A stretch of DNA of 32,501 bases from a virus. The stretch covers positions 1 through 32,501 of the IMG/VR virus record IMGVR_UViG_3300044972_001114; one strand, 5' to 3'. A program made the translations under genes and the position numbers. Below the pieces are notes generated by a model, which was not told where the DNA came from, made no database searches, and saw nothing but the letters and a program-made list of their open reading frames with translations. Below are positions 1 to 32,037 of this stretch, one piece after another (within the stretch, counting starts at the first letter, position 1; every line of letters starts with the position of its first letter).

Positions 1-113
1 TTGGTCAATGAACTCAACGTGTGCAACGCCGAAACGGCTTGACGCGCTGATATTGTCCGGCTTGAATCCAAACCGTGAAATCAAAGACCTCAATTTGGTT
101 TCAATATCGCCAG
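1..113. repeat. Terminal direct repeat, left copy
   Basis: Bases 1-113 are identical to 32389-32501 by direct reading. A minus-strand gene reads in frame from this copy into the right end, so the repeat most likely reflects overlap closure of a circular assembly rather than a physical phage terminus. It lies wholly inside coding sequence, which is unusual for true short terminal repeats. Confidence 0.97.
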
Positions 114-582
114 CAAACGCCGCCTTCGCGCCGGGGCGGGTGTTCTTGCTCATCAACATCCTCTTCAGATCTTGCACATCCCGGCCTGTCATTCGTGACA
201 ACTGCGCCAGCGTTAAATCTGGATGGCTGTCGTAGAAACTAATAATTTCAGCCTTGGTTGAAGACATTCCAATAGTCTCATCGTCATCATCACCGCTTTG
301 GCGAACCGCCATCTTTGCTTTCGCTGCAAATCCAAGACGGGCGGCGATTTCCTTGCGTGTGTTGCTCATGTTCGGTGTTCTCCAATGTTGTAGTAGCTCA
401 TCCTCGTCAATGAATCTGCCGCGCTTGTCCATGCTCTTTGAGATATCCCATAATTGGGGTTTTCCTTGAACCCGACCACGGATGAATGCCGTTCCCCATT
501 CTGGGCGCTGCGTCAGCTCAATCTCGACTCCGCGCTTCAGTTGATCCGGCCGAAGAAATGTCTCCTTGCTCATGTCGTGCAT
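1..582 (-). CDS. Motif-repeat protein spanning the joint, N-terminal part
   Basis: This reading frame runs leftward off position 1 and continues at 32388, ending at 32038. Joined across the repeat it gives about 310 residues. ATG at 582 is preferred because a GGAG lies 9 bases upstream (592-595); ATG 597 has no clear ribosome site and ATG 573 is also possible. The upstream head gene stops at 608. I do not recognise the family. The first ~70 residues look like a small charged domain (start MHDMSKETFLRPDQ). A second segment begins MSNTRKEIAARLGFAA at ATG 369, which has its own GGAG upstream and resembles the N-terminus of the gene at 4924, so it could be an internal start. The first TRPGAKAA motif copy falls at 118-141. 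Position between Mu F-like and virion-surface genes suggests a virion or head-assembly role, as inference only. Confidence 0.8.
   Translation of the reverse strand, partial: MHDMSKETFLRPDQLKRGVEIELTQRPEWGTAFIRGRVQGKPQLWDISKSMDKRGRFIDEDELLQHWRTPNMSNTRKEIAARLGFAAKAKMAVRQSGDDDDETIGMSSTKAEIISFYDSHPDLTLAQLSRMTGRDVQDLKRMLMSKNTRPGAKAAFAGDIETKLRSLISRFGFKPDNISASSRFGVAHVEFIDQ
118..141 (-). repeat. RPGxKAK motif copy in joint-spanning gene
   Basis: This stretch encodes TRPGAKAA and on the plus strand contains gcgccggggcggg. It is one of seven related copies in the genome; the others are at 3710-3733, 3911-3934, 4109-4132, 4508-4531, 4841-4864 and 32200-32223. Similarity exists at both DNA and peptide level. 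Confidence 0.75.
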
Positions 583-607
583 CGTAGCGATCTCCATTAC
601 GATTTAT

Positions 608-1690
608 TTATGCGTTTACGAAACCGGGGTCAGGAACTTGGCGCGTGTCAACTAGCCGCTGACGCGCTCCGTTGTGCTTGGCAATAGCGGCTGGGTCTAT
701 CGTCCCGTTCGGGCGTGTCCAACGCTCGCGCAACGCCTCGGCGGCGGGGACGGGAATCAGGCTGCAACGGCAGTTGAAGCCCAATGGGGGTGAGATTCCA
801 AGGCGGTCGAAGTCTGCCATCGTCCCGACGTAGCCGTCAAAGGCTCGATGCGTGTCCCGCGTGCGCGGGTCTTTGGTGGCGCTGAACTGCACCAGCGGGA
901 CGAACGCCTGTACTCGCTCGTCGCGGAGGACTTCGGCGCTGCCCTCGGTCATGGCGCGGTTGGTGTTCGTCCGCAGGACGGTTTCAAGGCGGGAGGACGT
1001 TAGCCCTGTCCCGGTCATCAGTTGGGCGGTGGTGACGAAATCGCCAAGGTTCATGGTCTTGATGAGCTTGCCGACCACGCTCTTGGTGGGGCGCTCCTCG
1101 ATGACCTGCGCGATCAGTTCCTGCACCATCCGCGCCTGCGCGACAGGCATAGCGGTAACGAAGAAGGTGGTATCAACGATCCGCTTGACCCGCGAGATAG
1201 CCCCTTGCGGCCCTCGTGTAACACCGCGTAACAACGAATCGAGGATCGGGGACTGCTTGCGGAGGTCAGGAAGGGCGTTTTCACGCTCGTGATCGGTCAC
1301 GTCCCCGGCGCTGGCGGCGGCCGCCTTGACCAGCAGCTCCCAGTCGGCGCGGGTAATCGGGACGCGCTTCCTGAACCAACCCGTGATCGGAGCCATCCAT
1401 TTCGTCCCGAAGCCTTCAAGGGAGATCGGTACGTCTCGGTCGAACTTGACCGCGTCCCCATCGTCGAGCATTCCCTCGATAGCCCCGTCTGGGATCTTGG
1501 CGGTGTCCACCGTATCTCGCGCCCCAAAGAGCCACGATGCCATCAGGAGCGCCGCAGTCGCCTCGTGGAACTCTGCCCACGCAGGAAGGGCATCTTCGCC
1601 CCTAACCTGAGCCGCGACCGCTCTACGGTACGCCTGCTGCGACTGGCGCAGGACTTTGCGGAGGTGCTTGTCGAGGTCGGCTTTGGTCAT
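608..1690 (-). CDS. Phage head morphogenesis protein, Mu F / SPP1 gp7-like
   Basis: A 360-residue protein whose C-terminal ~100 residues carry the Mu F-like minor head protein signature: VLRTNTNRAM, then FSATKDPRTRDTHRAFDGY, then LGFNCRCSLIPV with the family's closely spaced cysteines. Members of this family (PF04233) are minor capsid or ejected proteins that sit next to the portal and take part in procapsid assembly. The N-terminal half is helical and more variable. The start ATG overlaps the portal stop in an ATGA junction at 1687-1690, so the two are translationally coupled. The order portal then F-like protein is the usual Mu-type head layout, which supports the call. Confidence 0.88.
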   Translation of the reverse strand: MTKADLDKHLRKVLRQSQQAYRRAVAAQVRGEDALPAWAEFHEATAALLMASWLFGARDTVDTAKIPDGAIEGMLDDGDAVKFDRDVPISLEGFGTKWMAPITGWFRKRVPITRADWELLVKAAAASAGDVTDHERENALPDLRKQSPILDSLLRGVTRGPQGAISRVKRIVDTTFFVTAMPVAQARMVQELIAQVIEERPTKSVVGKLIKTMNLGDFVTTAQLMTGTGLTSSRLETVLRTNTNRAMTEGSAEVLRDERVQAFVPLVQFSATKDPRTRDTHRAFDGYVGTMADFDRLGISPPLGFNCRCSLIPVPAAEALRERWTRPNGTIDPAAIAKHNGARQRLVDTRQVPDPGFVNA

Positions 1691-3180
1691 CGCTTGCGCT
1701 TGCGGACGGCGGCTACCTTCGGCGCTTCAGGGGCTGGCTCGTCGCCCTCGCTCTCGTTGCCCTGCCCGAGCATGGCTGAGAGCGGGTTGGACGATGCGCC
1801 CGCGCTGCCTGTGGCTTGACCGCCGAGGACGGATTCTCCGTCTTCCGGGTCGGACAGACCAAGGAGGTCGCGGACTTCGCGCTCGCTGACACGGCCACCC
1901 ATTTGGATAAACGTCTGAATTGCTTCGAGCCGCTCCTTCGGGTTCGGTCGCTCCGGGGCAAAGACGAACCGAATACGGCGTGCATCCTCTTCGGAGGCTC
2001 CGAGCATCCCGGCAATGATGCGGACGAGGTCGGTGGTTAGGCTCTCCGCGAGGCAATCCGCGTGATAACGGATTACGCGGGAAAGGGTATCGGCGTGGAG
2101 GTCGGCAACGCCTGACCCCATACCCGTCCCACCAGCCTCGCTAGAGAGCGACTGACCGAGGATTGCTTCCTTGAGTTTGCCAGAAAGCCAGTTCACCAAC
2201 TCCATGAAGATCTGAGCGCGGCCACCGTTCGCGTCCTTGATGTCGATGTCGTACATGGACTCGGTCGGCGAAATGCGGGGCAGAACGACCGAGTTGTCGT
2301 TGACCAAGTTCTGCAAGATGGTCATCATCTCGCTCTTGGCGGCATCGTTCCCTGCTGGGTAGTACCCAACGCGGATGCCGAGGGCGTACCGCTCCACATA
2401 AGCGGCGGCGTTCTGTAGGACTTCCTGCTTCAAGAGCCAGATGTACCAACAGACATCACGCGCACCTACGCCACGGTAAACCGTCTCAGCGCTGTTCGGG
2501 TCGATGAAGTTAGGCGCGGTGGTGAATACGCGGTGCAGGACAATGGCGCGGCGTTCGTTGTCGTCAAACAGGTGGACGAGCGAGTCAAAGCCGAGGTCGG
2601 TGACGGAGGCCTCGTTGATGTAGGCGCTACCAACGCGCATCGCCACGTTCCCGGTCTGGTCGAAAGCGAGGGTGTCGGAGGCGAGCGGAAGCCATTCGCG
2701 GATGCGTACCCCAAGGCGCGGGTCGCGGTCGTAGACCACGTTTACGGCGCTGCACCCGTACCAGACGGCTTCGTGCAGGGAGCGGAACATATCGCTACGG
2801 CGCGGGGCTGCGCCGATGATCTCGGCAATGCGCTCGGCGAGCTTGACAAGGCGCGGGTTGCTCTCGTCGTCGCAAAGGACGTTCCACTCCAACCCGGCAA
2901 GGGTCACGAGCAGGGAGCGCAGCACGCCCTCAATGTCCGCGTCTGCCCGCATCATCGCCTGATAGTTCGGGTCAAGGCGGTAGGCGAGGCTCGAGTTCCG
3001 CAGCATTAGGCTGGCGGTGCGGAAGAACGTCCGCTGCACTTCCACGGGCATGGCAAGCGGCCCGGTCAGTCCACGATCAATCGGAGGCGGCAGCGGCTTG
3101 CGCGGTCGCTTGGTTGGTGGCAAGCCTGCGCCGGGAATCGACTGACGTTGCGAAAGTGGGTTGTTGATCGGGTCGGGCAT
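1687..3180 (-). CDS. Portal protein, Mu gp29-like (DUF935)
   Basis: A 497-residue protein of typical portal size. The middle has CWYIWLLKQEVLQNAAAYVE followed by RYALGIRVGYYPAG, matching the DUF935/Mu gp29 pattern of an aromatic-rich segment, then ERxG and a glycine-tyrosine turn. Further on, ILGQSLSSEAGGTGMGSGVA and DLHADTLSRVIRYHAD match the conserved portal segment after the clip. The C-terminus is proline- and acid-rich and ends in KRKR. The portal forms the dodecameric ring for DNA packaging and for tail attachment. It starts at ATG 3180, overlapping the upstream stop in an ATGA junction, and is coupled to the F-like gene downstream. It lies shortly after the large terminase, as expected. 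Confidence 0.9.
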   Translation of the reverse strand: MPDPINNPLSQRQSIPGAGLPPTKRPRKPLPPPIDRGLTGPLAMPVEVQRTFFRTASLMLRNSSLAYRLDPNYQAMMRADADIEGVLRSLLVTLAGLEWNVLCDDESNPRLVKLAERIAEIIGAAPRRSDMFRSLHEAVWYGCSAVNVVYDRDPRLGVRIREWLPLASDTLAFDQTGNVAMRVGSAYINEASVTDLGFDSLVHLFDDNERRAIVLHRVFTTAPNFIDPNSAETVYRGVGARDVCWYIWLLKQEVLQNAAAYVERYALGIRVGYYPAGNDAAKSEMMTILQNLVNDNSVVLPRISPTESMYDIDIKDANGGRAQIFMELVNWLSGKLKEAILGQSLSSEAGGTGMGSGVADLHADTLSRVIRYHADCLAESLTTDLVRIIAGMLGASEEDARRIRFVFAPERPNPKERLEAIQTFIQMGGRVSEREVRDLLGLSDPEDGESVLGGQATGSAGASSNPLSAMLGQGNESEGDEPAPEAPKVAAVRKRKR

Positions 3181-3707
3181 CAGGATTTCTCGTATGCAAG
3201 GGCTTTGATCTGGTCTACCGTCATGCGCTTAGAAACGCCGTTCGGCTGTTTCACTTCGTAGGACGTAGCAAAGGCTGGCGGATTGGTCTGCCCGCTGCGG
3301 AAGTCAAGCGTATACCCAAGGCGCTTGAGCGCTGCTTCGGCTTGGTCGATGGTCAGCTTGCGCTTGCTTGTAGGCAGGGCAAAGGCGGGACGGGTAACAG
3401 CAAGAATGCTTTCCTTGACTTGTGGGTCGGCGTTGAGAACCATACGCAATGCCCAATCCATTTGCCCAAGGATTGCGCGAACAGCAGCGGCATCGTTTGC
3501 CCGCATTGCTGGCACTAGCTTGGCAAGCAAGGCATCTGCTTTGGCGGTTGCTTGTTTGACGAGTTTCTTTTCGCCCGTGCGGTACTTTTGCCCTTTGGCA
3601 TCGCGCTCTTCAATCGCCTTCATTCGTGCAATCAACGCCTCCAGCGCGTGCGTGTCCACGGCTGCGAAGATGCCTAGTCGGCGCATGATGGCCTTGCGTT
3701 GGCTCAC
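3180..3707 (-). CDS. Unknown protein between motif-repeat gene and portal
   Basis: A 175-residue basic protein that I do not recognise. It starts with GTG at 3707, overlapping the preceding TGA (GTGA junction). The N-terminus MSQRKAIMRRLGIFAA resembles those of the gene at 4924 and of the internal start at 369, which share the pattern MS..(K/R)..I..RLGFAA. A helical middle with many Lys and Ala is followed by a C-terminal segment (KLTIDQAEAALKRLGYTL, then SKRMTVDQIKALAYEKS) that looks like a small DNA- or protein-binding fold. It lacks the SRPGxKAK motif. Its position between terminase and portal suggests a head accessory or ejected protein, as inference. Confidence 0.75.
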   Translation of the reverse strand: MSQRKAIMRRLGIFAAVDTHALEALIARMKAIEERDAKGQKYRTGEKKLVKQATAKADALLAKLVPAMRANDAAAVRAILGQMDWALRMVLNADPQVKESILAVTRPAFALPTSKRKLTIDQAEAALKRLGYTLDFRSGQTNPPAFATSYEVKQPNGVSKRMTVDQIKALAYEKS

Positions 3708-4924
3708 GCCTTCGCCTTCACGCCGGGGCGGGACATCTTGTAACGCTTAACCAGTTGCTCTAGTTTGCTTCGCATACCAGTAGAAACCACGGTTTCGTCC
3801 ATTGCGTCTTGCGCGGCCTTGATCCAGCGCCGTGCATTCTCTGTGTCACCACGACGAACAGCATTCTCGGCGTTGAATATGGCTTCGCTGACAATAAAGG
3901 TTGCCGACATCTTCGCCTTCGTGCCGGGGCGGGAGGACTTGGCTTTCTTCAGTTCGTCGTACACCTCGCTACCAATTCGCTTGTAGGTTCCTTCGCCAAG
4001 CACCGAGTCGATCGCCTGCGGAACCGACAAACCCTTGGATACCAGCGTACGAATCTTGTCGCTGATTGCGGCGTTGTTGCGGATTTGATTTAGCGCGGCA
4101 TCGGCGAACTTTGCCTTTGCACCGGGGCGGGAGGCTTGCAAGGTCATCCCTAATTTCCGCGCTCTCTTTTCCAACTCCGAAATCTCTTTCGATGTTTGTT
4201 TAAAAGCAATCTCCGTTTCTTTCGCAACTGCGAATTCCTTATCTAGAAGCTTTACTAATTTTGCCTTTTTTTTCATATCAGGCGTGCGCCATGTTTGTCT
4301 ATTTAAATTATATATTCTTGGAGTTGCAGCTTTAAGATAGTCCGCCAGTTCCCTATAACGCGGCCGCAAAGTATTCAGCTTGCGTTGAATTGTCGCCTTC
4401 TCTTCATCCCTAGCGGCTGCGCGTGCAACTGCTGCTGCCTTCTCTTCGGCGATTTCTGCCTTGCGAGCAGGTGACCCCCTGAGTGGGGCTGGCCCCATTG
4501 CTGCAAAGTCTGCCTTCGCGCCAGAGCGGGAGAACGGGGACTTCGACGCGCCAAGGATCATCGACTGGGACTTGACGGCGATCCGCAGTTGCTCAACGTA
4601 ATGCTCAATGTCCTTCGCGCTGGTCGCGGTGTTGATGACCTTGATGGCGTTGGTGACATACGCGTCGAGCGCGGCGAGCCGCTCCTTGACCTTGTCGCGC
4701 ATGAACTTGTAGTTGGTGATCGCGTCCTTGGCTGCGGCTTTTGCCTCAGCGACTTGCTTGCGGTACTCCGCCGACTTGGGATCAGCCGGGTCGGCGGTCA
4801 GCGCGGTAGCCGCGTAGCCAACGCGAGACAAGAACCCCATCTCTGCCTTTGCGCTGGTGCGGGTTGTTTCCTTCACGCCTTGCGCCGCGAATCCCAAACG
4901 CTTCTCGATGTCTTGCTTGCTCAT
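3704..4924 (-). CDS. Modular protein with five SRPGxKAK-type repeats
   Basis: A 406-residue, lysine- and alanine-rich protein read from ATG 4924, chosen because AAAGGA lies just upstream; the frame stays open to 5026, but that extension runs back into terminase sequence. I do not recognise the family. Motif copies are TRTSAKAE (residues 21-28), SRSGAKAD (132-139), SRPGAKAK (265-272), SRPGTKAK (331-338) and SRPGVKAK (398-405, the very C-terminus). The last four are spaced 133, 66 and 67 residues apart, so the protein looks like strung modules of about 66 residues or twice that. The segment at 274-330 (KIRTLVSKGLSVPQAIDSVL) resembles the C-terminal module of the joint-spanning protein. The middle is predicted coiled coil. 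Neighbours are terminase and portal, suggesting a packaged or head-associated protein. Confidence 0.82.
   Translation of the reverse strand: MSKQDIEKRLGFAAQGVKETTRTSAKAEMGFLSRVGYAATALTADPADPKSAEYRKQVAEAKAAAKDAITNYKFMRDKVKERLAALDAYVTNAIKVINTATSAKDIEHYVEQLRIAVKSQSMILGASKSPFSRSGAKADFAAMGPAPLRGSPARKAEIAEEKAAAVARAAARDEEKATIQRKLNTLRPRYRELADYLKAATPRIYNLNRQTWRTPDMKKKAKLVKLLDKEFAVAKETEIAFKQTSKEISELEKRARKLGMTLQASRPGAKAKFADAALNQIRNNAAISDKIRTLVSKGLSVPQAIDSVLGEGTYKRIGSEVYDELKKAKSSRPGTKAKMSATFIVSEAIFNAENAVRRGDTENARRWIKAAQDAMDETVVSTGMRSKLEQLVKRYKMSRPGVKAKA
3710..4864 (-). repeat. Five dispersed in-gene copies of the RPGxKAK element
   Basis: Copies sit at 3710-3733, 3911-3934, 4109-4132, 4508-4531 and 4841-4864. 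On the coding strand most share CCCGCCCCGGC followed by AAGGC. Flanking protein segments differ, so these are short linkers between unlike modules rather than one tandem domain repeat. Confidence 0.75.
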
Positions 4925-4964: not shown

Positions 4965-6431
4965 TCAACCGAACATTCTGCGCTTGACTGCGCGAGAATC
5001 GAACATCCTGCTTGTGTCGGTCGCAACGGTGACCGCGCCGCCTGATGTCACTACCGTCCCGCTCGACGCTGCGGTGCATAGGTCAACAACGCAATCGACC
5101 GTGTCATCGTGACTGCCAGCGGGGAAGGCGAGCATTTCGTCAAGGGTGGAACGGAAGTCGGCGTGGACTTGCCCGTCATGGTTTTGCGGGAACAGGAGCT
5201 TCCCCTGCTCAACAAACGGCTGGGCGGCGGCGGCTCGTAAATGCTTGTCGGCGGTGCGGGTCACGGCAATGACGGGCTGGTGGCAGTCTTGGCGGAATTG
5301 GTCAAACACGCCCTTTTGCGGCCCGTTCGCCTCGGCTAGAACCATGCCCACGCCACGGCGCTCAACGAGGTCTTTCGCCATACGGGCGAAATCGGGGAAG
5401 GACTCGCGGACGCGGAGGATGTCGGTCAGGTACAGGTTGCGGGCTTGGTCAACCTCACCAACGATGCAGACCGAGTAGTCGGGGTCGTCGCGCTCTTGGC
5501 GCTTCTTTCCGTACCCCCAGTCGATGGCGGCAACTGTGCGCGTACCGAGGGGGACTGTGCCAGCGCGGTAGTAGCGCGTCCATTCCGGTCGGAAGATCAG
5601 GAGGTCGGAGGACAGCGGAACGAGTTCGTAGGCTCGGGCGTATGCCATCGGCCCCATCTCGCGGCGCTTCTGGTCGAGGATCTCAGGCGTGAACACGCTT
5701 GCCCACGGGCTAATCAGTCCCCGGCAAGGCTCGCGTAAGAGCGTGCCAGCGCGTTCGCATTCTCTGCGCCAGTCGGCGGTAATGTCGTCCGTATGGAAGG
5801 GGGTCGCCGTGCGCCAAATGCGGGCGGGGTGCTTCGCGGACGGGTCAAGCATGGGGAGCCAGATGTTGTTCATCGCCTCCTTGACCTGTGCGCGAAGGGT
5901 GGGTTGGAGGACGGCGTTGCGTAGGTCGCAGATGTCATCCGGCCAAAGAACGTCGGCGCGTCCGCCCGTTCGCCCAAAGATGCCGGAGGCTTGCACGGAC
6001 GGGTCACGCCTTGCCCCTACCCCGGGCGCGGTGATCGACCACGCCATGACCGTATCTTCCCCGGGCTTGAGTTCGACATGGGGGAAAGTGGCGCGGTAGA
6101 TGGGGCTGCGGATGATGTCGCGCAGGAAGCGGGAGGTTGCGGACGCGGCTTCGTCGTTCTGCCCGATCAGCTTAAAGCGTGTCGCTGGGCGACGACCGAG
6201 CCACCACGCGGCCAAATATGTAAGGCTGCTGGTCTTCGCGTGACCACGCGGGATTTCACCGTACCAACTGTGATGCTTCAGCGCGTGCGCGATCAGCCTG
6301 CGCTGAAGGTCGGAGGCGGGCTTGCCGAGGCACAAGGCTAAGAAGGCAACCGGGTTCTCCCGCGCTGCGGCGACCGCTTGCTCCGGGGTCAGGCTTTGCG
6401 CTTTGGTTTTCGCTTTGGCTTTGGAAGGCAC
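4965..6431 (-). CDS. terL: Terminase large subunit
   Basis: A 488-residue DNA-packaging motor. The ATPase half shows a Walker A-like GEIPRGHAKT (residues 58-67), a Walker B VLWPDD (161-166) and the coupling motif TATPFH (208-213). The nuclease half shows AAIDWGYG (Asp304), LAEANG (Glu367) and SHDDTVD (Asp442/443), the acidic set of RNase H-like terminase nucleases. It converts concatemeric DNA into genome units and drives it through the portal. The start is GTG 6431, inside the end of the upstream gene (43-base overlap); no good ribosome site is visible there, so coupling is likely. The N-terminus is Lys/Ala-rich. Confidence 0.93.
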   Translation of the reverse strand: MPSKAKAKTKAQSLTPEQAVAAARENPVAFLALCLGKPASDLQRRLIAHALKHHSWYGEIPRGHAKTSSLTYLAAWWLGRRPATRFKLIGQNDEAASATSRFLRDIIRSPIYRATFPHVELKPGEDTVMAWSITAPGVGARRDPSVQASGIFGRTGGRADVLWPDDICDLRNAVLQPTLRAQVKEAMNNIWLPMLDPSAKHPARIWRTATPFHTDDITADWRRECERAGTLLREPCRGLISPWASVFTPEILDQKRREMGPMAYARAYELVPLSSDLLIFRPEWTRYYRAGTVPLGTRTVAAIDWGYGKKRQERDDPDYSVCIVGEVDQARNLYLTDILRVRESFPDFARMAKDLVERRGVGMVLAEANGPQKGVFDQFRQDCHQPVIAVTRTADKHLRAAAAQPFVEQGKLLFPQNHDGQVHADFRSTLDEMLAFPAGSHDDTVDCVVDLCTAASSGTVVTSGGAVTVATDTSRMFDSRAVKRRMFG

Positions 6432-7994: not shown

Positions 7995-8534
7995 TCAGAA
8001 CGGAACCCAATTCGGGTCGGCTTCTTGAGCAGCCTTAATCTCCGCCCGCCGAAGGCGACGACCCCCTTTGTAAAGGGGGAGGGGGGTTTTAATATCTGTG
8101 GTTGTGGTTGTAGTTGTAGTTGCCATCGGTTCGCCATTGGCTGAGCCAATGACTGAGCCATTACCTGAGCCATTGGCGGAGCCATTCTTGCCACTCCAAC
8201 GGGCATCGGCTCCGCGCTTTCCGGATTCACTTCGTTCGTTGTGCCGTTCCGCCACCTTGACGCGTTCGCGTTCCATGCGCGGGTTCACAAGGCTAGCCAT
8301 TGGCTTAGCCAATGGCTCAGCCATAGGCTCAAACCTTGCCCGGATGATTGCCCAGTCGCGCTCGGAGAGTGGGCAGCGGGTCAGGATTGAGCAGGCTTCG
8401 CGGTCGTCTGGGATGCCCCCATTCGTCCACGCGTACATGAGGAGCTGCGTGTACGACCAGCCTTGGATGGGGGTCATCGTTGCGGTGCTGACCAAGAAGT
8501 CAGTCGGGTAAAGCGGGAACCACGGTATAGACAT
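7995..8534 (-). CDS. DUF1376/YdaU-like replication protein with repeat linker
   Basis: A 179-residue protein from ATG 8534 with AAGGAAG upstream. The N-terminus WFPLYPTDFLVSTATMTPIQ then GWSYTQLLMYAWTNGGIPDD matches the DUF1376 (YdaU-like) domain found in phage replication-initiation regions. After residue 70 comes low-complexity sequence: MAEPLAKPMAS, then GSANGSGNGS, then a run of eight threonines, encoded by 12-bp repeats. The conserved-looking end is EAIKAAQE-like helix then DPNWVPF. It is the first gene of the leftward unit, downstream of a candidate extended -10 promoter and a strong hairpin. In this family the N-terminal domain is usually followed by a variable linker, which fits. Confidence 0.7.
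   Translation of the reverse strand: MSIPWFPLYPTDFLVSTATMTPIQGWSYTQLLMYAWTNGGIPDDREACSILTRCPLSERDWAIIRARFEPMAEPLAKPMASLVNPRMERERVKVAERHNERSESGKRGADARWSGKNGSANGSGNGSVIGSANGEPMATTTTTTTTDIKTPLPLYKGGRRLRRAEIKAAQEADPNWVPF
8136..8183. repeat. Four 12-bp tandem repeats inside the DUF1376-like gene
   Basis: Units at 8136, 8148, 8160 and 8172 follow the pattern A(A/T)T(G/A)(G/A/C)C(T/G)GAGCC. On the minus strand they encode GSANGSGNGSVIGSANG. A related cluster at 8298-8330 is read in another frame as MAEPLAKPMAS. Confidence 0.8.
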
Positions 8535-8949: not shown

Positions 8950-9006
8950 TCCGATGTCAGAGGCGCGTGCCGCTGACGACGCACCCAGTTTGAGAGGACT
9001 GAAGCC

Positions 9007-9321: not shown

Positions 9322-9410
9322 TATCGACCGCGCACCTGTTCACCCTCCGGGGTGGGCGGGATGCGACGGCCGATACCGACGCAACGCACCCAGTACGAGA
9401 GGACTGACCC

Positions 9411-11985: not shown

Positions 11986-12168
11986 ATGCGAGGGGATTGG
12001 GAAGAGGACATTGTTGACCGCATCATGGCGAGCCAGTCCACCGACCCCCTGCTCAAAGAAGCCGCCACCGAGATCACCTATATGCGCGAGCAGCTCACCG
12101 CACAGATCAAAGAAGTCAACCGCGCTCGGCAGGCGCTTCTCCTCTGCCAGCGGACGCAACGTGCTTGA
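11986..12168 (+). CDS. Small early hypothetical protein before rusA
   Basis: A 60-residue helical protein from ATG 11986 (MRGDWEEDIVDRIMASQ) with GAGGCGAAGG upstream. The second half (ATEITYMREQLTAQIKEVNR) is a likely coiled coil. It overlaps the resolvase gene by 8 bases. The gap before it (11869-11985) holds no recognisable gene beyond a 19-codon GTG frame without a ribosome site. Function unknown. Confidence 0.65.
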   Translation: MRGDWEEDIVDRIMASQSTDPLLKEAATEITYMREQLTAQIKEVNRARQALLLCQRTQRA

Positions 12169-12571
12169 ATTCGTAGTCGCCGGAATTCCCGCGCCCCAAG
12201 GCTCTAAAAGGGTTTTCGTGCGCGGCGGCCGCGTTTCGCTCGTGGAGTCATGCGCGAGGGTCAAGCCCTACCGCGCCCTTGTTTCCCTTGCCGCTAGTCA
12301 AGCGCGTACTGAAGCACCAACGCAGCAACCCGTAGGGATAGCGATTGCCTTCGTCTTCGTTCGCCCGAAGAGCCATTACACCAGTAAAGGCGCACTCCGC
12401 GCTGGCGCTCCGACCCACCCCGGCAAGCCTGACATCGACAAACTTTGCCGCGCCGTCCTTGATGCCCTTACGGGCATCCTGTACCACGATGACGCGCAGG
12501 TCGTTTCCCTGAACGCTAGTAAACGCTACGGGGTCGCTTCGATGACGGCTATTTCCCTTTTCACCTGTTGA
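12161..12571 (+). CDS. rusA: RusA-family Holliday junction resolvase
   Basis: A 136-residue protein from GTG 12161, overlapping the upstream stop. The N-terminus has FVVAGIPAPQGSKR, the family's substrate-binding start, and the catalytic region is HPGKPDIDKLCRAVLDALTG followed by LYHDDAQV. Asp91, Asp93 and Asp110/111 correspond to the acidic residues that bind metal in RusA. RusA resolves four-way junctions by paired nicking. In this phage it probably processes recombination intermediates made with the ERF annealing protein downstream. Length fits the family (about 120-140). Confidence 0.9.
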   Translation: MLEFVVAGIPAPQGSKRVFVRGGRVSLVESCARVKPYRALVSLAASQARTEAPTQQPVGIAIAFVFVRPKSHYTSKGALRAGAPTHPGKPDIDKLCRAVLDALTGILYHDDAQVVSLNASKRYGVASMTAISLFTC

Positions 12572-12660: not shown

Positions 12661-13443
12661 ATGCAACGAAGTGACACTATTGGGGAGCTAGCGAAGGCGC
12701 TGGCGGCCGCAAACTTGGAAATCACCAACCCCAGCCTTGACGCGGTCAACCCGCATTTTAAAAGCCGCTACGCCAGCCTTGGCGCAATCATTAACGCCGT
12801 CCGCCTGCCGCTTGCCCGTCACGGGATCAGCGCCGTGCAGACAGTCAGCACCGATGGCGGGGCGGTAGGGGTGACGACCACCTTGCTCCATGCGAGCGGG
12901 GAATGGATGGCGGAGACGGCAATGTCCGCGCTGCCTGACCGCGCTACGGTTCAGCAACTAGGGTCGGTCATCACCTACCTACGCCGCTACGCGCTCGCGT
13001 CCATCACGGGCATCGTTGGCGAGGACGACGATGACGGCAACGCAACGACTAGCCCAAGCGCCCCGCGTAGCGAGCCTCGTAAGCCCTTCAAGCCGCAAGA
13101 CCCACGGACAGCCGTTCCGCCGCCTCCGACCGCTCCTAGGGCAACCAAGCCCGCCCCTGAGCCTGTGGCGGAAGTCAAGGCGGCAACCAAGGCGCTTGAC
13201 GCGTACCCAGACGTATACGAGGGGACATTCGACATCCTGCGCGTAGTCGTTCGTGACGGCAAGGCTCACGCTATTCAGGTGGACGGCAAGCATGGCAAGG
13301 CGTGGGTCGCCACTACCGTGCAGGAGTACGCCGACATGGCGAAGGAACACGTCAACGACTGTATGCAGTTGCAGGTTGAACGCGTCGGTGACACGCTCCA
13401 GATCATGAAGGTCATCGCATCGAAAGTCGAGGTCCCATTTTGA
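12661..13443 (+). CDS. erf: ERF-family single-strand annealing protein
   Basis: A 260-residue protein from ATG 12661 with GAGAGGAC upstream. The ERF domain is clear in residues 5-125: NPHFKSRYASLGAI (30-43), LARHGISAVQT (51-61) and the signature LGSVITYLRRYALASITGIV (100-119), followed by EDDDDGN. ERF proteins bind single-stranded DNA and anneal complementary strands, circularising or recombining phage genomes. A proline-rich linker (about 130-165) leads to a C-terminal domain of ~90 residues (TFDILRVVVRDGKAHAIQVD) that is probably variable. It pairs with the RusA resolvase and is coupled to a Gp157-like gene. Confidence 0.92.
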   Translation: MQRSDTIGELAKALAAANLEITNPSLDAVNPHFKSRYASLGAIINAVRLPLARHGISAVQTVSTDGGAVGVTTTLLHASGEWMAETAMSALPDRATVQQLGSVITYLRRYALASITGIVGEDDDDGNATTSPSAPRSEPRKPFKPQDPRTAVPPPPTAPRATKPAPEPVAEVKAATKALDAYPDVYEGTFDILRVVVRDGKAHAIQVDGKHGKAWVATTVQEYADMAKEHVNDCMQLQVERVGDTLQIMKVIASKVEVPF

Positions 13444-13949
13444 GCCTTTACCAAATCACGTCCGAAATGCAGTCCATTCTCGATGCCGTCTTGGACGGTG
13501 GCATCGACTCGCCCGAGGCGCAGGCCGCGCTCGACGAGCATCTCACGGGTCTTGATGTCGCCCTCGACACTAAGGCCGAGTCCTACGCGGGATTCATTCG
13601 TGAGCTAGAGATGCGAGCGGAGGCGAGGAGCAAGGAAGCTTCTCGCATCCGTGCGCTTGCAGCGGCTGACGATGCCCTTGCCACACGCCTCAAAGAAGGC
13701 TTGAAGGCGGCAATGGAGCAGGTTGGCAGGTTGAAGATGGAACTGCCGAGTTTCAAATTGTCGATTGCTGCTAATGGCGGGAAGCAGTCGCTTCAGATTG
13801 ATGACGATGCCGTCAAGGGTCTTGAAGTCCCGCTCGTCAAGATCGTCACCGAGCCAAACAAGGAAGCGATCCGGATCGTCCTTGAGGCTGGCGGCGAGAT
13901 CCCCGGATGCAGATTGCTCCCTCGCGGGACAAGCCTCCGCATTCGCTAA
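13440..13949 (+). CDS. Gp157-like protein (Siphovirus Gp157 family)
   Basis: A 169-residue protein from TTG 13440 in a TTGA overlap with the ERF gene. The N-terminal SLYQITSEMQSILDAVLDGG, the long central helices and a C-terminal beta segment with KLSIAANGGKQ and GCRLLPRGTSLRIR fit the Siphovirus Gp157 family (PF05565), which usually lies beside single-strand annealing proteins and has been linked to phage resistance in streptococci; its biochemical role is unclear. Its stop (13947-13949) abuts the stop of the convergent leftward gene. Confidence 0.85.
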   Translation: MSLYQITSEMQSILDAVLDGGIDSPEAQAALDEHLTGLDVALDTKAESYAGFIRELEMRAEARSKEASRIRALAAADDALATRLKEGLKAAMEQVGRLKMELPSFKLSIAANGGKQSLQIDDDAVKGLEVPLVKIVTEPNKEAIRIVLEAGGEIPGCRLLPRGTSLRIR

Positions 13950-17101: not shown

Positions 17102-19426
17102 TTACGGAGGGGTAATAATGCTGTCTGTGTTAGCGGGGTTGTCGTATTCCGGAGGAACAAAGGTACTTGACACCAGCGCCCCGGTTGAACTGTATTCAGT
17201 TACGACATGGGTCCACCCATACCCACCAGTCTTCTGCACATTGCAAGCCGCCCCGGTATACGCTTGCCTTTGCGATATGTCGTTAATAAACATGATGCCG
17301 CTATTTGAATCGGCTGACGGGCGACGCGCAAGGAAAGGATACATTGGACTGTTTAAGCCTCCAATCCCTTGATTGCTAAAGTTATTAAACGAGTCTCGAA
17401 TCGAACACCTAGACGCACTCTTATAGGTTGCCACGATTGGAATATTGGCTGGAATATAGCCGCTTCCGGTGGTTAGCAGAGTCGTCCCTGTAACCACTCC
17501 GCCAGTAAGTGAAGTAGATCCTGTAGCCTGAACAACAGTACCAGCAACCACCCCGCCTCCAGTTGTAAACGTCAACGTAGGCGCAGAAACATATCCTGAT
17601 CCGCCGTTAAGAATAATAAGCGAATTGACTGTGCCGTCCATATTTACACGGGCGACAACAACGGCGGTGTCTCCAGTTGGTGATGCTGAAGCAGTAACGC
17701 GTGCAATATCGCCACACAGAAACGACCCTCCAAGATCACCGTTTTCAACGGTGCATCCAACTGCATAGTCAAACCAAATAAGGGCTTCCCTTTTATTTGC
17801 TTCAGGCTGTGCGCTTCCGCCAGTAATAAGTGGGCCGCCTAAATTTGTGTTTCTTATGCTGGTGTTGAATGCTATTTTTGCCTCACTATGGCTTCCAAAT
17901 CGAATAGGGCAAGTTACATTTTCTGTATAAAAACCATCAATCGACCCGCATCTCCACGCTTTAATCCACATTCCATATCGACCACCCTGTGCCGTCAAGT
18001 TAGAAAACGAACTTGACAAAGAAGTTCCTGTGCCGTGAGCGATTGTATTTGCTTGATAGTCAAGAAGGAAATTGATTTTTGTTTCTAGGTTTGACGTGTA
18101 CCAATTAGAACAACGATTGGCATTGAAATCAGCGCCACAAACGAAACCAATTTCCGTAATAACTGATCCGGATGTGTTTAGGTTTTTAAGTTCACAACCC
18201 CATACCTGATTGAAAATAAACCCATACTGACCACTAAAGCCACGAAGAGTAATGTTGTTAATAATTCCGTCGGTGTAGTTTTTAACATACAGGGCGGTTG
18301 TTGCTGTTCCTGAAATTCTAAAGGCTCGCAACTCGTTTCCAAACGAAATAGCAAGTGGCGTTTGAGTTACTCCATTTGCCGCCATTGCTGCACCAACAAT
18401 GCTCGTAGCAACAATGTTTGAATTCTCGCCTACCCCGTAAATTGTGCGCTTCGGAGCGTTGGTGCTACTCGTCGGAATGGCGTTGATCGTAGATATGATC
18501 TTGTAGTCGCCCGCTGGTATAAATACATTCAGCCCGGTATTGATTGCCGCCTGAATGGCTGCTGTGTCATCCGTAACACCATCTCCTACTGCCCCGAAGT
18601 CTTTGACGCTCACGGTGTCGCGCAGCTTGTTCTGAAGCGTCCGCGTTGTCGCGCTGCCTGCGGCCACAAACGAAAACCGCGCATCGTTGCCTACGGTGGC
18701 TGTGGTGCTTGTTGCGCCAAAGTCAACGGCAAAGGAGCGGTTTGCGCTTAGGTCGCCGCCTCCGGTCAAGCCCGTGCCTGCGGTCATGGTCGTCGCGCCG
18801 AGCGCCTTGGCGGCAAGCCCAGAAACCAGCCCGGTGATCTGCGCTTGTCCAAGCGTCAGTACATCCGTACCGCCAGTTGCGTGCGTTGCCGCGTGAGTGG
18901 TGCTTGACTTGAGGGCAAGGTCAGACACCAAGCTCGTGACCTGCGCCTGCGTGATAGTGATGGCATCAGACTGGCCTGCGCTGTGCGTACTAGCGTGTAG
19001 TGTGGGGGTACGAGCGTTGCTCAGTCGGCCGTCGTTACCCACACAGGCGGTAGTCGCTGATGAGCCGTAGGAGACGTTGAGCGTGACATCGGTGGACAAT
19101 GCGCCACCGCCGCCCAAGCCCGTCCCAGCGATCACTTGCCGCGTACCCGCTACTTTTGCGGCTAGGTCAGTTCCAAGATCGGTGATCTGGGACTGCGACA
19201 AGGTGAGGGGGTCAGTCCCGACTGCCGTGTGACTAGCCGCATGGGCAGCAGGAGCGCCGCCGCCGCCGCCGCCTGACAGCCGAGCGTCGTTGCCTTGGCA
19301 AATCGTCCCGGCGGTCGTGCCAAAGACTGCGGCGATAGTCCCCGTCCCGGTAATCGTTCCGCCTGACAAGCCCGTGCCTGCGGTGATTTCTGAGACAGCC
19401 CCGACATTGATGACGACGTCAGCCAT
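17102..19426 (-). CDS. Tailspike with pectate-lyase-type beta-helix
   Basis: A 774-residue protein. Residues 1-260 form a repetitive stalk: GTGLSGG-type turns at 18, 101 and 218 alternate with HA(A/S)(S/T)H segments and VGND.R endings (NDARLS, NDGRLS, NDARFS). At residues 272-297 comes VSVKDFGAVGDGVTDDTAAI, the start of the Pectate_lyase_3 fold, and the rest is beta-helix-like with many Asn and Gly ladders. Such tailspikes bind and often cut surface polysaccharide. The N-terminal part probably attaches to the tail. It is coupled by TAATG to the preceding small gene. The enzyme activity is inferred from the fold only. Confidence 0.88.
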   Translation of the reverse strand: MADVVINVGAVSEITAGTGLSGGTITGTGTIAAVFGTTAGTICQGNDARLSGGGGGGAPAAHAASHTAVGTDPLTLSQSQITDLGTDLAAKVAGTRQVIAGTGLGGGGALSTDVTLNVSYGSSATTACVGNDGRLSNARTPTLHASTHSAGQSDAITITQAQVTSLVSDLALKSSTTHAATHATGGTDVLTLGQAQITGLVSGLAAKALGATTMTAGTGLTGGGDLSANRSFAVDFGATSTTATVGNDARFSFVAAGSATTRTLQNKLRDTVSVKDFGAVGDGVTDDTAAIQAAINTGLNVFIPAGDYKIISTINAIPTSSTNAPKRTIYGVGENSNIVATSIVGAAMAANGVTQTPLAISFGNELRAFRISGTATTALYVKNYTDGIINNITLRGFSGQYGFIFNQVWGCELKNLNTSGSVITEIGFVCGADFNANRCSNWYTSNLETKINFLLDYQANTIAHGTGTSLSSSFSNLTAQGGRYGMWIKAWRCGSIDGFYTENVTCPIRFGSHSEAKIAFNTSIRNTNLGGPLITGGSAQPEANKREALIWFDYAVGCTVENGDLGGSFLCGDIARVTASASPTGDTAVVVARVNMDGTVNSLIILNGGSGYVSAPTLTFTTGGGVVAGTVVQATGSTSLTGGVVTGTTLLTTGSGYIPANIPIVATYKSASRCSIRDSFNNFSNQGIGGLNSPMYPFLARRPSADSNSGIMFINDISQRQAYTGAACNVQKTGGYGWTHVVTEYSSTGALVSSTFVPPEYDNPANTDSIITPP

Positions 19427-28384: not shown

Positions 28385-28993
28385 TTATCCCTTCATTCGG
28401 GAGTTGATTGCACGGGCAAACTCTTCAGGCTTGCCAGCAAATTGCTTGACGAGTGAGCCAACGTCACCAATGTCCATGCCACGCGGCAGGGCTGCTCGGC
28501 TCATATCAATCTTGGTTCCGATTGGGTCGCGGGCGAACAGGTCGCGCCATGACTCAAGGAGCTCGACTGGGTTACGGGAGGCCTGCAACTGACCAACAAG
28601 CGCGGCGCGCTGTGAGTCTGGGATGCGGTAGCCCTCCTGCTCCATGATCTCCACTTCGCGCTCAAACTTCTCGCGCTTCAACTCGGCTTCGAGTCGGGCG
28701 AACCGCGACTTGAGACGGGCGTTCTCGGAGCGAAGCGCGTAGGTGGATCGGCTAGCGACCACCGACTCCGCCTCGTCTTCGTCTTCGCCTGCCTCAACGT
28801 CATGGCTCTCAATGTCGATGTGGACTTGACCGTCTTCCTCGGCCATCTCGTCCTTCATCTCATCGTCGTCCTCAGCCATCTCGTCCTTATCGTCCGAGTC
28901 GTCTGCGAACTTCTTCTTCATCATGTCCGAGAGTTCGGAGATGGCGCACTTCATGGCCTCCAACTCCTCGCGCATATCGTCGCTGGATGCCAT
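28385..28993 (-). CDS. Nested scaffold protein (internal start in protease gene)
   Basis: An in-frame ATG at 28993 (MASSDDMREELEAMK) lies 7 bases after AAGGAGGA (29008-29001), a near-perfect ribosome site. The 202-residue product is acidic and coiled coil: an Asp/Glu-rich stretch (DDSDDKDEMAEDDDEMKDEM), then NARLKSRFARLEAELKREKF, and a C-terminal helical part ending FARAINSRMKG. That matches scaffold proteins. The layout is that of lambda C/Nu3, where the scaffold is the C-terminal part of the protease gene made from its own start. Confidence 0.82.
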   Translation of the reverse strand: MASSDDMREELEAMKCAISELSDMMKKKFADDSDDKDEMAEDDDEMKDEMAEEDGQVHIDIESHDVEAGEDEDEAESVVASRSTYALRSENARLKSRFARLEAELKREKFEREVEIMEQEGYRIPDSQRAALVGQLQASRNPVELLESWRDLFARDPIGTKIDMSRAALPRGMDIGDVGSLVKQFAGKPEEFARAINSRMKG

Positions 28994-29875
28994 GCTGGCC
29001 TCCTCCTTGGTAGTCGTCGGGACAAAGGTATTGAGTCCGCCACCAGCCCCGACGAGGTCATGGTTGGACTTTGAACAAGTGATCTTCTCGCCCTTGCGGG
29101 TGAAATGGGTGTCCGGGAGAGGGCGGCGCGGGGTTTCACGCCCGAGCAACGCCACTTCGGATAGGTGGTTTGAGCCTGACCAGATCTCAGCCGACCGACG
29201 CGGGAAGGCGTTGGTAGCAATGAAGCGGTCGAAAATATCGCGGTTTACTTCCATGTCGCCCACAATGTACCCAATCCCATCGCGTTCTTCGTAGGAAATT
29301 GTGGGGAATCGACCGACAGCGGACTTCGGTTCCTTGCCATCCTTCTCGTGCATGATGACGAGGCGAGGGAACGAACCGCGAGCCATGTGCTTGCGCGTAC
29401 TAGCAACGATGTCCTTGAGGCGCTTGTTGTTGAAACGCTTCAGTTCCGGGTCAGCCTCGCCGTCGTCAATGGCTGGGTCAAACGCCATGAACAGTTCGAC
29501 GCGCTCAATCATGACCTTGTCGCCGTCTTCGGCGACTGTGTGAGATGTCTTTGCGTTCACGGTCTTCTCCTCTTTGCGGTCGAGTTCCTTGTCCTTGCGC
29601 TCCGCCCATGCCTTGCCAGCATCGCCGCCCCACAGGAGCCAAGCGATATAGCCAGCGGAATCCTTGCCCCATCCTTCGCCCTGCTTGTCAACCTCATGCC
29701 GAGCGAAGTAGGACACCATGCGGCGCACGGTTTCGGGTGACAGGTTCGCCCGGTTCTTGATGTCACGCGCCCGGGCTACGCCGATTTCTGTGCCACCGCG
29801 ACCATGCTTTTCCCGCAGCTCAAGGCCACGGGCAGCATTGGATGCCATTTCGGTGGTTGGCTTCAAGTCGATCAT
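28385..29875 (-). CDS. Capsid maturation protease with fused N-terminal domain and scaffold
   Basis: A 496-residue protein. Residues 1-95 form a small domain (ARARDIKNRANLSPETVRRM, then YIAWLLWGGDAGKAWAERK) that I know as an add-on in phage head proteins. Residues ~115-275 are protease-like: RLVIMHEKDGKEPKSAVGRF, YIVGDMEVNRDIFDRFIATN, FPRRSAEIWSGSNHLSEVAL and LLGRETPRRPLPDTHFTR, with His of VIMH and Ser of RRSAEIW as candidate catalytic residues. Residues 278-288 (GGGLNTFVPTT) match the capsid protein N-terminus. From 295 on it is the scaffold. The ATG overlaps the preceding stop as TAATG. The protease would cleave scaffold and head proteins during maturation. Confidence 0.75.
   Translation of the reverse strand: MIDLKPTTEMASNAARGLELREKHGRGGTEIGVARARDIKNRANLSPETVRRMVSYFARHEVDKQGEGWGKDSAGYIAWLLWGGDAGKAWAERKDKELDRKEEKTVNAKTSHTVAEDGDKVMIERVELFMAFDPAIDDGEADPELKRFNNKRLKDIVASTRKHMARGSFPRLVIMHEKDGKEPKSAVGRFPTISYEERDGIGYIVGDMEVNRDIFDRFIATNAFPRRSAEIWSGSNHLSEVALLGRETPRRPLPDTHFTRKGEKITCSKSNHDLVGAGGGLNTFVPTTTKEEASMASSDDMREELEAMKCAISELSDMMKKKFADDSDDKDEMAEDDDEMKDEMAEEDGQVHIDIESHDVEAGEDEDEAESVVASRSTYALRSENARLKSRFARLEAELKREKFEREVEIMEQEGYRIPDSQRAALVGQLQASRNPVELLESWRDLFARDPIGTKIDMSRAALPRGMDIGDVGSLVKQFAGKPEEFARAINSRMKG
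29012..29044 (-). other. Peptide motif shared with the capsid N-terminus
   Basis: This stretch encodes GGGLNTFVPTT; the capsid gene encodes GGGLNTYVPST at 27907-27939. The bases also agree in part. It lies directly upstream of the internal ribosome site for the scaffold. Confidence 0.7.
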
Positions 29876-31224
29876 TAGGCGGTTAGCCCTTGGATTTGAC
29901 CGTCACTTAGACGCGTTGGGAAGTATTTGATCTTGCGAATGGCGTTGTTGAGAACAACCGCCGTGTCGGTGATGCTTGTCCCGTTTGTCGACGGGCCGCC
30001 AATACTCAGGAACGTCGGAGCAACACTAAACGCTAGCGTCCCCGGCACAACTGTGCCGCCATTGAGGCACAGGCTTTGCACCGATCCGGAGTACGAGAAC
30101 GCGCCCTTGTTGATTGAATTGTCTACAGACGCGTTCGCGGTTTCGATAAACGCGGGAACCTTGTCAGCCAGTCGAAGCCGCGAGGTGGTCGCTGCTATGT
30201 ACTGGTGAAGGTGTTGGTTGGAAACGTCGCTCGTTGCAATGACGGTGCGTTGGGTAGTGGTTGGACTGCAACGACACCACTCGGTCACAAACGTACCCGT
30301 TGTCCCGCCTGTGTACCACGAGCTGAAGTTTGTCCCAGCGGCAATGATGGCGGTGTCGACGGCGCGGGTGACCGTACTCGCGCCCGTAAGAATTGTCGAG
30401 GATGCAACAGAACCTAGTTCAAGTTGTGCGCCCCAAATGTAGTTCTCGACTGCGGCCGATGTGTCTAAATTAGGGTACACGGCAAGTAGTACAGTTGAAC
30501 TTATAGAAGTAAATACAACCGACACTCGCACCCATCGATCACTTGGAACATTAGAGAATTGCGACCCAAAACCGGATGCATTATTTATTGTTACAGCGGG
30601 ATCGCTGCAACTACCGACAGTAGTTAATGGCGTACCACCAACATCAAAAGGAGCCAATCGGAAATATGTAGCGCCATTAGTGCCAGCGCGAAGCCACATA
30701 CTGTAGGTATATTGCTGCGATGTGGTTACTGTTGCGTATGTAAACAGCCGTACAAAAGTAGGGCCTGCATCTTTTGTAATACTTGTACCCGTAAGCGTCC
30801 CATTGTCGGGCCCGTTAATTCTTGCTATTGGAGTTCCTGAGGTTGCAAGTATTGAGTTGATATTGACTTTCGCACTTACACCCCACAGGTTAGCGTCATA
30901 ACAGTATTGACCCTGCTGACACAAATTCGTTGCTGGGGCTTCTAGTAGTAGCCCACGCGGAGTGCCAATAGATGTCTCAGAGAAGGTGAAGCGGGGCGCT
31001 TGCGGTTGCCCGCTTGGTACTGTCTCCACATAGCCAAGGCTATTGATGAACGTAGCCCGAGCGGTCGCGTCTGCGCGGCTAAACGTGATGCGCGGGTCAA
31101 TCGTTCCACCCATCGCCGTGAAGTCAAGGGACAACGTCGAGCCGTCGCCAGAGCGCGACATGAGTCGGCTGTCGTAAGACGAGCCGCTGATCCTTGACAT
31201 CCTTGGACGGTTCGCTCGATTCAT
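29875..31224 (-). CDS. Virion-surface protein with lectin-like beta sandwich (head or fibre)
   Basis: A 449-residue protein. The N-terminal part STLSLDFTAMGGTIDPRITF, SRADATARATFINSLGYVET then GTPRGLLLEAPATNL is a conserved entry sequence of phage virion proteins that precedes jelly-roll, carbohydrate-binding-like domains. The rest is beta-rich (LamG/CBM-like: YTYSMWLRAGTNGATYFRLA, DRWVRVSVVFTSIS, NYIWGAQLELGSVASSTIL) and ends RKIKYFPTRLSDGQIQGLTA. It probably binds glycans. The position inside the head operon, between F-like and protease genes, suggests a head fibre or decoration rather than a tail fibre. Translation is coupled to the protease (TAATG). Confidence 0.72.
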   Translation of the reverse strand: MNRANRPRMSRISGSSYDSRLMSRSGDGSTLSLDFTAMGGTIDPRITFSRADATARATFINSLGYVETVPSGQPQAPRFTFSETSIGTPRGLLLEAPATNLCQQGQYCYDANLWGVSAKVNINSILATSGTPIARINGPDNGTLTGTSITKDAGPTFVRLFTYATVTTSQQYTYSMWLRAGTNGATYFRLAPFDVGGTPLTTVGSCSDPAVTINNASGFGSQFSNVPSDRWVRVSVVFTSISSTVLLAVYPNLDTSAAVENYIWGAQLELGSVASSTILTGASTVTRAVDTAIIAAGTNFSSWYTGGTTGTFVTEWCRCSPTTTQRTVIATSDVSNQHLHQYIAATTSRLRLADKVPAFIETANASVDNSINKGAFSYSGSVQSLCLNGGTVVPGTLAFSVAPTFLSIGGPSTNGTSITDTAVVLNNAIRKIKYFPTRLSDGQIQGLTA

Positions 31225-32037
31225 TTACAGGTTAGCCCAGAAGGTTCCCATAGTTGGCGTGCCGCTCGACTTGAATTGCGCGGTGACGTAAGAAGCCCCG
31301 GCAACGTCAACCATCGCGTAGGCGGGTTCCACGTTTGCGCCTGCGGGCGAGTACAGGTTGGCGGCAGGGGTTCCGGCGACCTGCGTAATGCCCGAGAAGG
31401 TGCGCGTGTTGAGAGCGCCGTCCATCGTGTAGTTCGGGACGGTTCCGCTGGTGAAGGTCAGCGTGAAGTCTGCGAGGACGGTCGGCATATACCAAAAGCC
31501 CGTACCAGTCGTGCGCGTGTACTGCAATCCTGTCGGCGTGCCTGCGGTGGTGACGACTGCAGTTCCGCCGAGTGTCGCGGAGAGCTGGAAGGTCGTTGAG
31601 CCGTTCGTTGCAATGATGTAGTAGGTCGTTGGGCTGGTGTACCCGGTGATCGTTCCCGTTCCGCCGAGCGTTCCGGTAATGGTCACGGCCTGCCCGACTA
31701 CAAGGACGTTCGCGTTGCAGGTGAAGTTACCTGCGGTGTCTGCAATGGTGACACCCGCAAGCGTGCCAGCGGTGTCAAGGTACTTGCGCCAGCCGAGGAG
31801 CCGCATACCGATGGCGGTCTGCGCGGTGGTCGCCGCCACCATGAACGGCATGACGTACAGGAGCGAAGGGTTCGTCCCGCTCACCGATGCCGTGTTGATA
31901 TCCCACAGGAGGGCGCTTCCGGTCGCACTCGCCGGGGCGGCTTGCAGGAGAATCGCCTGCGCTGCGGTGTAGGTTGCAGGGACGGACGCGACCGATACCT
32001 TGCGGAAGTTCTCTTGGGCGGTGTTGATTACGGGCAT
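31225..32037 (-). CDS. Virion protein with inserted Ig-like/beta repeat domain
   Basis: A 270-residue protein from ATG 32037, which directly follows the TAA of the joint-spanning gene. The middle (about residues 102-175: GNFTCNANVLVVGQAVTITG, GYTSPTTYYIIATNGSTTFQ, then LSATLGGTAVVTTAGTPTGL) is a module I have met in many freshwater and marine phage virion proteins, inserted into unrelated hosts. The flanks (AIGMRLLGWRKYLDTA before, GFWYMPTVLADFTLTFTSGT after) look like one domain interrupted by it. A head fibre or decoration role is inferred from the module and the next gene. Confidence 0.7.
   Translation of the reverse strand: MPVINTAQENFRKVSVASVPATYTAAQAILLQAAPASATGSALLWDINTASVSGTNPSLLYVMPFMVAATTAQTAIGMRLLGWRKYLDTAGTLAGVTIADTAGNFTCNANVLVVGQAVTITGTLGGTGTITGYTSPTTYYIIATNGSTTFQLSATLGGTAVVTTAGTPTGLQYTRTTGTGFWYMPTVLADFTLTFTSGTVPNYTMDGALNTRTFSGITQVAGTPAANLYSPAGANVEPAYAMVDVAGASYVTAQFKSSGTPTMGTFWANL

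Follow-up and report, generated by a model that had tools for sequence, protein, structure and literature searches.

SRPGxKAK as a probable in-frame recombination joint of modular genes in a group of uncultured phages

Both short boundary sequences (PMC3029335) and annealing-driven exchange (PMC3945230) are already known in phage mosaicism. The genes described here resemble boundary-sequence mosaicism with Rad52-like annealing proteins in that a short shared sequence stands at the module borders, non-homologous pieces appear to be exchanged, and the phage encodes an annealing protein, but here the boundary is intragenic, recurs as many as about nine times in a single gene, never changes frame, and doubles as the coding sequence of a peptide linker. 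With the domain mosaicism of phage proteins (Smug et al. 2023, PMC10684548) these genes share the recent swapping of fragments among proteins that otherwise differ, but the functional classes that study singles out are tail fibres, spikes, endolysins and DNA polymerases, and in its text the word "linker" is absent and "motif" occurs in the references only. Polyvalent proteins (Iyer et al. 2017, PMC5512222) are multi-domain phage proteins encoded alongside virion genes, in the MuF neighbourhood, for which injection has been suggested. The genes studied here also encode at least two distinct domains per polypeptide and, judging by gene position, are also encoded together with virion genes, whereas in the 70 members scanned the described domain set (peptidase, ART, ParB-like, etc.) was not found, and Pfam models recognize hardly any of the modules; for polyvalent proteins, PMC5512222 mentions no conserved joint, and neither "linker" nor "shuffl" appears in its text.

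Integron gene cassettes are likewise exchangeable units arrayed with a shared recombination sequence between them, but here no integrase was found among the genes scanned, the joint is no folded attC-like site, and the units are in-frame parts of one protein. Internal head proteins of phage T4 carry a capsid targeting sequence, a fixed N-terminal peptide followed by variable proteins, and are encoded in the head-gene region. A fixed N-terminus followed by a variable part in the head-gene region is observed here as well, several modules per chain are a difference, and packaging and cleavage of the products would be putative here. In the literature searched, with few subscription papers among it, we found neither the joint motif nor a description of a repeated, in-frame, codon-conserved joint that builds multi-module genes.

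Joint-bearing genes and their relatives

The window (the whole analyzed stretch of DNA, 32,501 nt) represents a phage genome that closes into a circle of 32,388 bp. Its two ends (positions 1-113 and 32389-32501) are an exact 113-bp repeat, which makes the assembly either circular or terminally redundant. The motif copies of the window lie in two genes, A and J (scores are those of the joint profile):

4965-6431, minus strand: terminase large subunit (PF17289, phrog_38), upstream neighbour of gene A
3704-4924, minus strand: gene A, modular and joint-bearing, between the terminase large subunit and the portal; 406 aa, net charge +34
4865-4924, minus strand: fixed N-terminal head of gene A, MSKQDIEKRLGFAAQG..., near-identical in 14 relatives with differing modules
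4838-4864, minus strand: gene A joint 1, TRTSAKAEM, after the head; degenerate, score -0.6
4532-4837, minus strand: module A1, helical; 17 distinct homologues with 33-98% identity, in other contexts
4505-4531, minus strand: gene A joint 2, SRSGAKADF; score 17.9, inside the pLDDT<50 segment 127-151
4133-4504, minus strand: module A2, helical; homologues in L001 and L003 (in L003, in its J gene)
4106-4132, minus strand: gene A joint 3, SRPGAKAKF; score 33.3, pLDDT<50 segment 264-275
3935-4105, minus strand: module A3; 96% identical copies in L003 and L005, with other modules adjoining
3908-3934, minus strand: gene A joint 4, SRPGTKAKM; score 28.3, pLDDT<50 segment 331-339
3734-3907, minus strand: module A4; 96% identical copy in L004, with other modules adjoining
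3707-3733, minus strand: gene A joint 5, C-terminal SRPGVKAKA, then stop; score 25.1
3180-3707, minus strand: gene B, GTG start overlapping the stop of A; head-style N-terminus MSQRKAIMRRLG, charge +14
1687-3180, minus strand: Mu-type portal protein (PF06074, E 2.9e-44)
608-1690, minus strand: MuF-like minor head protein (PF04233, E 2.1e-14), upstream neighbour of gene J
1-597, minus strand: 5' part of gene J, which runs across the circular joint into 32388-32038; matching gene L033:967-1917
115-141, minus strand: gene J joint 1, TRPGAKAAF; score 23.4
32038-32388, minus strand: 3' part of gene J
32197-32223, minus strand: gene J joint 2, SRPGTKTRM; score 24.2
32041-32196, minus strand: fixed C-terminal tail of gene J (phrog_2423, E 5e-9)

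All seven motif copies reported in the first-pass annotation of this DNA are present, five in gene A and two in gene J, the first being degenerate, and the spacings of 133, 66 and 67 residues given for gene A are right. The shared DNA core noticed there is also real: CCCGCCCCGGC with at most one mismatch occurs at 8 places, 5 of them joints, whereas 2.0 would be expected. The fixed head of gene J, MSNTRKEIAARLGFAAKAKM, starts at position 369, and its tail has 50 distinct copies in the collected loci, while the SRPGVKAKA ending of gene A is common to most group-1 A genes. Gene B has no joint. In MuF-fused toxins a variable effector is fused to the MuF domain; gene J instead forms a gene of its own behind MuF.

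IMG/VR was searched by three routes, that is, by protein (31 loci), by the J tail (80 more), and by the joint DNA pattern (at least its listed matches). In this motif search, of the kind proposed in the first-pass annotation, joints occur far beyond the two proteins of the window: at least 221 IMG/VR stretches yielded at least 117 genes that carry two joints or more. The joint consensus is [F/A/S/M][S/A]RPGAKAK[M/F][A/G], and its profile has 492 matches in the 117 genes compared to 1.6 in shuffled proteins, which excludes the chance origin of the matches. The head with which joint-bearing genes open, M..R..I..RLG..A, is fixed and hardly ever seen in other genes, and their end is SRPGVKAKA or the phrog_2423 tail. 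Every multi-joint gene with recognizable neighbours is located between TerL and the portal, or directly after MuF, and the portals of phages carrying such genes have about 60 to 99% identity to the window portal. As judged from these sequences, the pattern extends well beyond the window phage and belongs to a large uncultured phage group. Among annotated phages no full relative was found, single modules only being present in cyanophages, Rhodobacter phages and a few others, and the host-side search yielded distant matches to the fixed tail alone, in six genome records. No version of the motif with AT codons was found in IMG/VR, which could also be accounted for by GC-rich genomes.

Two joint-bearing genes, L127:6160-8252 and L177:4729-5790, have different heads (MNQKKIENKFYAAAPGKK; MNTEDKFYASKHG in L127). 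No terminase, portal or MuF relatives were detected on the two contigs, and the joint may reach other phage types. The candidate protease/scaffold gene of the window (28385-29875) has an N-terminal phrog_2859 domain, and in distant groups joint-bearing genes have this domain close to their start, too.

Module reuse, breakpoints and conservation of the joint

Genes were split into modules at the profile-defined joints, and families were formed by reciprocal coverage; clustering of modules cut at strict joints was rejected, as unsplit segments fused all families. The 117 multi-joint genes contain 535 modules from 184 families. In 78 of the 79 families seen at least twice, the copies have different neighbours, and the order of modules is distinct in 113 of the 117 genes. 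A complete gene comprises 1-9 modules (median 4). Their length varies from 27 to more than 130 aa, with quartiles at 64-91 aa, so that the unit of about 66 residues deduced earlier from the spacing of copies is coincidental. Fourteen close relatives have the mean portal DNA identity of 94.6%, yet on average only 17% of gene-A modules are in common. Three module families are present in both A and J of the window's phage group, and 22 of 148 module families are also found in other phage groups. The module type KI.TL..G...QAI, claimed for both proteins of the window, does not hold up: the likeness between them amounts to one 22-residue match with 41% identity and a pairwise E-value of 4e-4.

Breakpoints were studied in pairs of module copies whose DNA identity is 90% or more. 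There were 218 left-shared and 321 right-shared pairs, partly dependent on one another, with family-weighted bootstraps being concordant. For copies in different contexts, DNA identity is about 0.97 up to the joint and about 0.27 past it. In the family-weighted analysis, the left linkage fades and the right linkage rises over codons 3-8, the change across the joint core being gradual. As splitting at joints makes this test partly circular, an unconditioned test on raw blastn alignment ends was added: 63% of individual ends are within 30 nt of a joint, compared to 21% of random positions, and so are 74% of unique breakpoints identified with no prior splitting, about a quarter of alignment ends being away from any detected joint.

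The joint is conserved at the DNA level, besides the peptide, its core being TCCCGCCCCGGCGCGAAGGC. In the codon test, performed on loci found without use of joint DNA and with identical residues elsewhere as the comparison, the joint strongly prefers TCC (.84 vs.21), CCC (.87 vs.26) and GCG (.88 vs.30). Preference for codons of highly expressed genes was rejected as the cause, as MCP uses other codons; MCP and structural genes have no joint-like codon uniformity. The synonymous difference between lineages is 0.15-0.23 in the joint core and 0.51-0.54 in portal codons for the same residues, and in the core it does not increase with lineage distance. The portal was used here because the fixed tail is a weak control, close phages varying little. 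The DNA conservation would fit selection for a recombination site as well as common descent with recurrent exchange.

The nonsynonymous/synonymous ratio (n/s) is 0.42 in the joint core, compared to 0.006 in the fixed tail. Joint residues R, P, G and K have n/s of 0-0.36, indicating some amino-acid constraint, though the profile search itself favours conserved residues, while the S/A and A/V positions (n/s 1.0-1.2) are as free as silent sites. Given the constraint on R, P, G and K, the joint likely has a peptide role as well, beside the DNA role.

AlphaFold models were examined for the gene A product (406 aa) and for a nine-module relative of 801 aa; both are of moderate quality (mean pLDDT about 66) and show separate predicted folded segments. 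Joint residues fall into pLDDT<50 segments in 40 of 45 cases in gene A and in 71 of 90 cases in the relative, and circular shifts perform as well as the observed joint placement in 3 of 406 and 1 of 801 cases, respectively. In these two models, which take up the proposed check of predicted structures for copies at domain borders, the joints sit in predicted disordered linkers.

Breakpoints, reuse of modules in new contexts, conservation of synonymous sites and the location of joints in predicted linkers all strongly support one of the options listed for the shuffling linker in the first-pass annotation, a GC-rich recombination joint, and SRPGxKAK is very probably the in-frame joint of a module-shuffling system. 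An alternative is that it is a short linear motif for binding or targeting, and that every module needs a copy in order to dock on DNA, the capsid interior or the portal. This agrees with the invariant K and near-invariant R and G, and with the strong positive charge of gene A (+34) next to almost neutral neighbours, but we consider it rather unlikely, as it leaves the codon conservation unexplained and does not account for the freedom of the S/A and A/V positions. Somewhat less likely still, the gene could be a polyprotein whose RPGxKAK sites are cut by a phage protease, modules being released in the head: the repeated basic motif lies between folded modules, the genes sit in the head cluster, and DdrB/DarA of P1, packaged multi-domain proteins, are reported to be proteolytically processed (PMC5512222). 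However, cleavage explains neither synonymous-codon conservation nor breakpoints at the joint, cutting of the joint at the extreme C-terminus would release nothing, and no copy of the motif turned up in MCP, portal, MuF or the candidate protease/scaffold, the window copies being only in genes A and J. Cleavage at the joint could coexist with a recombination role, while, taken in place of a recombination joint, both the protease and the binding roles are less parsimonious.

Exchange mechanism

Three genes of the window are relevant to the exchange:

12661-13443, plus strand: ERF single-strand annealing protein (PF04404, E 2.8e-22; phrog_2324), candidate agent of exchange
12011-12571, plus strand: RusA-like Holliday junction resolvase (PF05866, E 3e-18)
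13440-13949, plus strand: Sipho_Gp157 / Gam-like end-protection protein (PF05565, E 2.1e-28; phrog_253)

Each of the 12 examined relatives longer than 27 kb carries an ERF or RecT-like gene. Red-beta requires just 23-27 bp of identity (PMC3945230). Identical runs of at least 20 nt are shared by 15-36% of pairs of unrelated joints, compared to 0.05% for random windows; in loci not chosen by joint DNA, 15% of joint pairs reach 20 nt, and 5% reach 23 nt. The exact identity of unrelated joints is thus often below 23 nt, so either many pairs are poor substrates or mismatch tolerance is needed. Together, the annealing genes, the short identity required by Red-beta and the identity runs of the joints favour annealing-type homologous exchange between co-infecting phages, and we infer that the exchange is most likely homologous recombination of this type at the core of about 20 nt, with an annealing protein as the enzyme.

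SRPGxKAK would then be the translation of an in-frame recombination joint some 20 nt long, and genes A and J would be cassette genes with a fixed head, 1-9 independently folding modules, joints between them, and a fixed end. When related phages meet, modules would be swapped by homologous annealing of joint DNA, probably through the annealing protein that the phage encodes (ERF in the window, a RecT-like protein in distant relatives) together with RusA and Gam. Since all joints are in the same frame, any exchange leaves the gene open. In the protein, the joint would form a short, flexible, basic linker. We consider this account of an in-frame recombination joint in cassette genes A and J very likely.

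Site-specific recombination at the joint, integron- or invertase-like and driven by an unrecognized enzyme, would also limit exchange to a narrow core, but it is highly improbable: no integrase, serine/tyrosine or other site-specific recombinase was found among the 29 window genes scanned (Pfam, and the 25 listed of 42 PHROG families), the joint DNA has no hairpin or dyad and no fold more stable than shuffles, and the linkage shifts gradually across the core. That false contig joins at repeated joints produced these genes in metagenome assembly, as might be suspected from the relatives all being uncultured assemblies, is scarcely credible, as the joint is shorter than the usual final assembly k-mers, reading frames remain open through to the correct tail, and separate metagenomes contain identical copies of genes with 8 joints and with 2-6 joints (e.g. 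L027/L028, or L071/L073/L074/L075/L076).

The annealing protein itself is swapped between phage groups, being ERF in the window (12661-13443) and RecT-like in L230-L233, while the C-terminal part of about 100-125 aa of the swapped proteins stays similar (43-49%).

Possible function of the products

The Pfam scan of 70 members yielded only DUF7678 and two incidental matches, and none of the 70 genes matched PADLOC defence families. The fold search of modules gave no match at E<=0.001, and the PDB sequence search provided no usable known function for any module. The location between TerL and the portal or after MuF makes a packaged or ejected product a reasonable supposition, and the position in the head cluster, the fixed N-terminus, the positive charge and the hypervariability suggest virion-internal or ejected proteins, which for the products of A and J seems an evenly balanced proposition. 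More tentatively, this may be a dedicated cassette system in which a phage lineage, by way of the codon-conserved joint, draws on a shared pool of at least 184 families to rebuild one or two ejected proteins associated with the head, each phage delivering its own combination of mostly unnamed host-acting modules. A shifting set of modules in ejected products would help against variable hosts.

Recombination at boundary sequences has long been proposed for phage mosaicism and rarely found, and the joint would provide a concrete, repeated case of it inside genes and in frame. The pool of at least 184 families consists of mostly unnamed small protein modules that appear to be in rapid circulation beside head genes, and these modules are candidate host-delivered proteins. 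As a sequence handle, the joint can serve for finding more such genes and for probing the exchange mechanism.

Several other features of the window were observed. The gene at 29875-31224 encodes a head spike fibre domain (NCBIfam NF048003, E 4.6e-22), and this gene and the adjoining one at 31225-32037 also vary strongly among relatives. The tail spike-like gene (18759-19387) contains three imperfect 29-nt repeats encoding TAGTGLxGG-type repeats. Inverted GCCATTGGCTGAGCCA-like repeats are clustered at 8133-8338 within the DUF1376 gene. A 24-nt direct repeat (8979-9002 and 9384-9407, 92% identical, 405 nt apart) is located near the switch from minus- to plus-strand genes.
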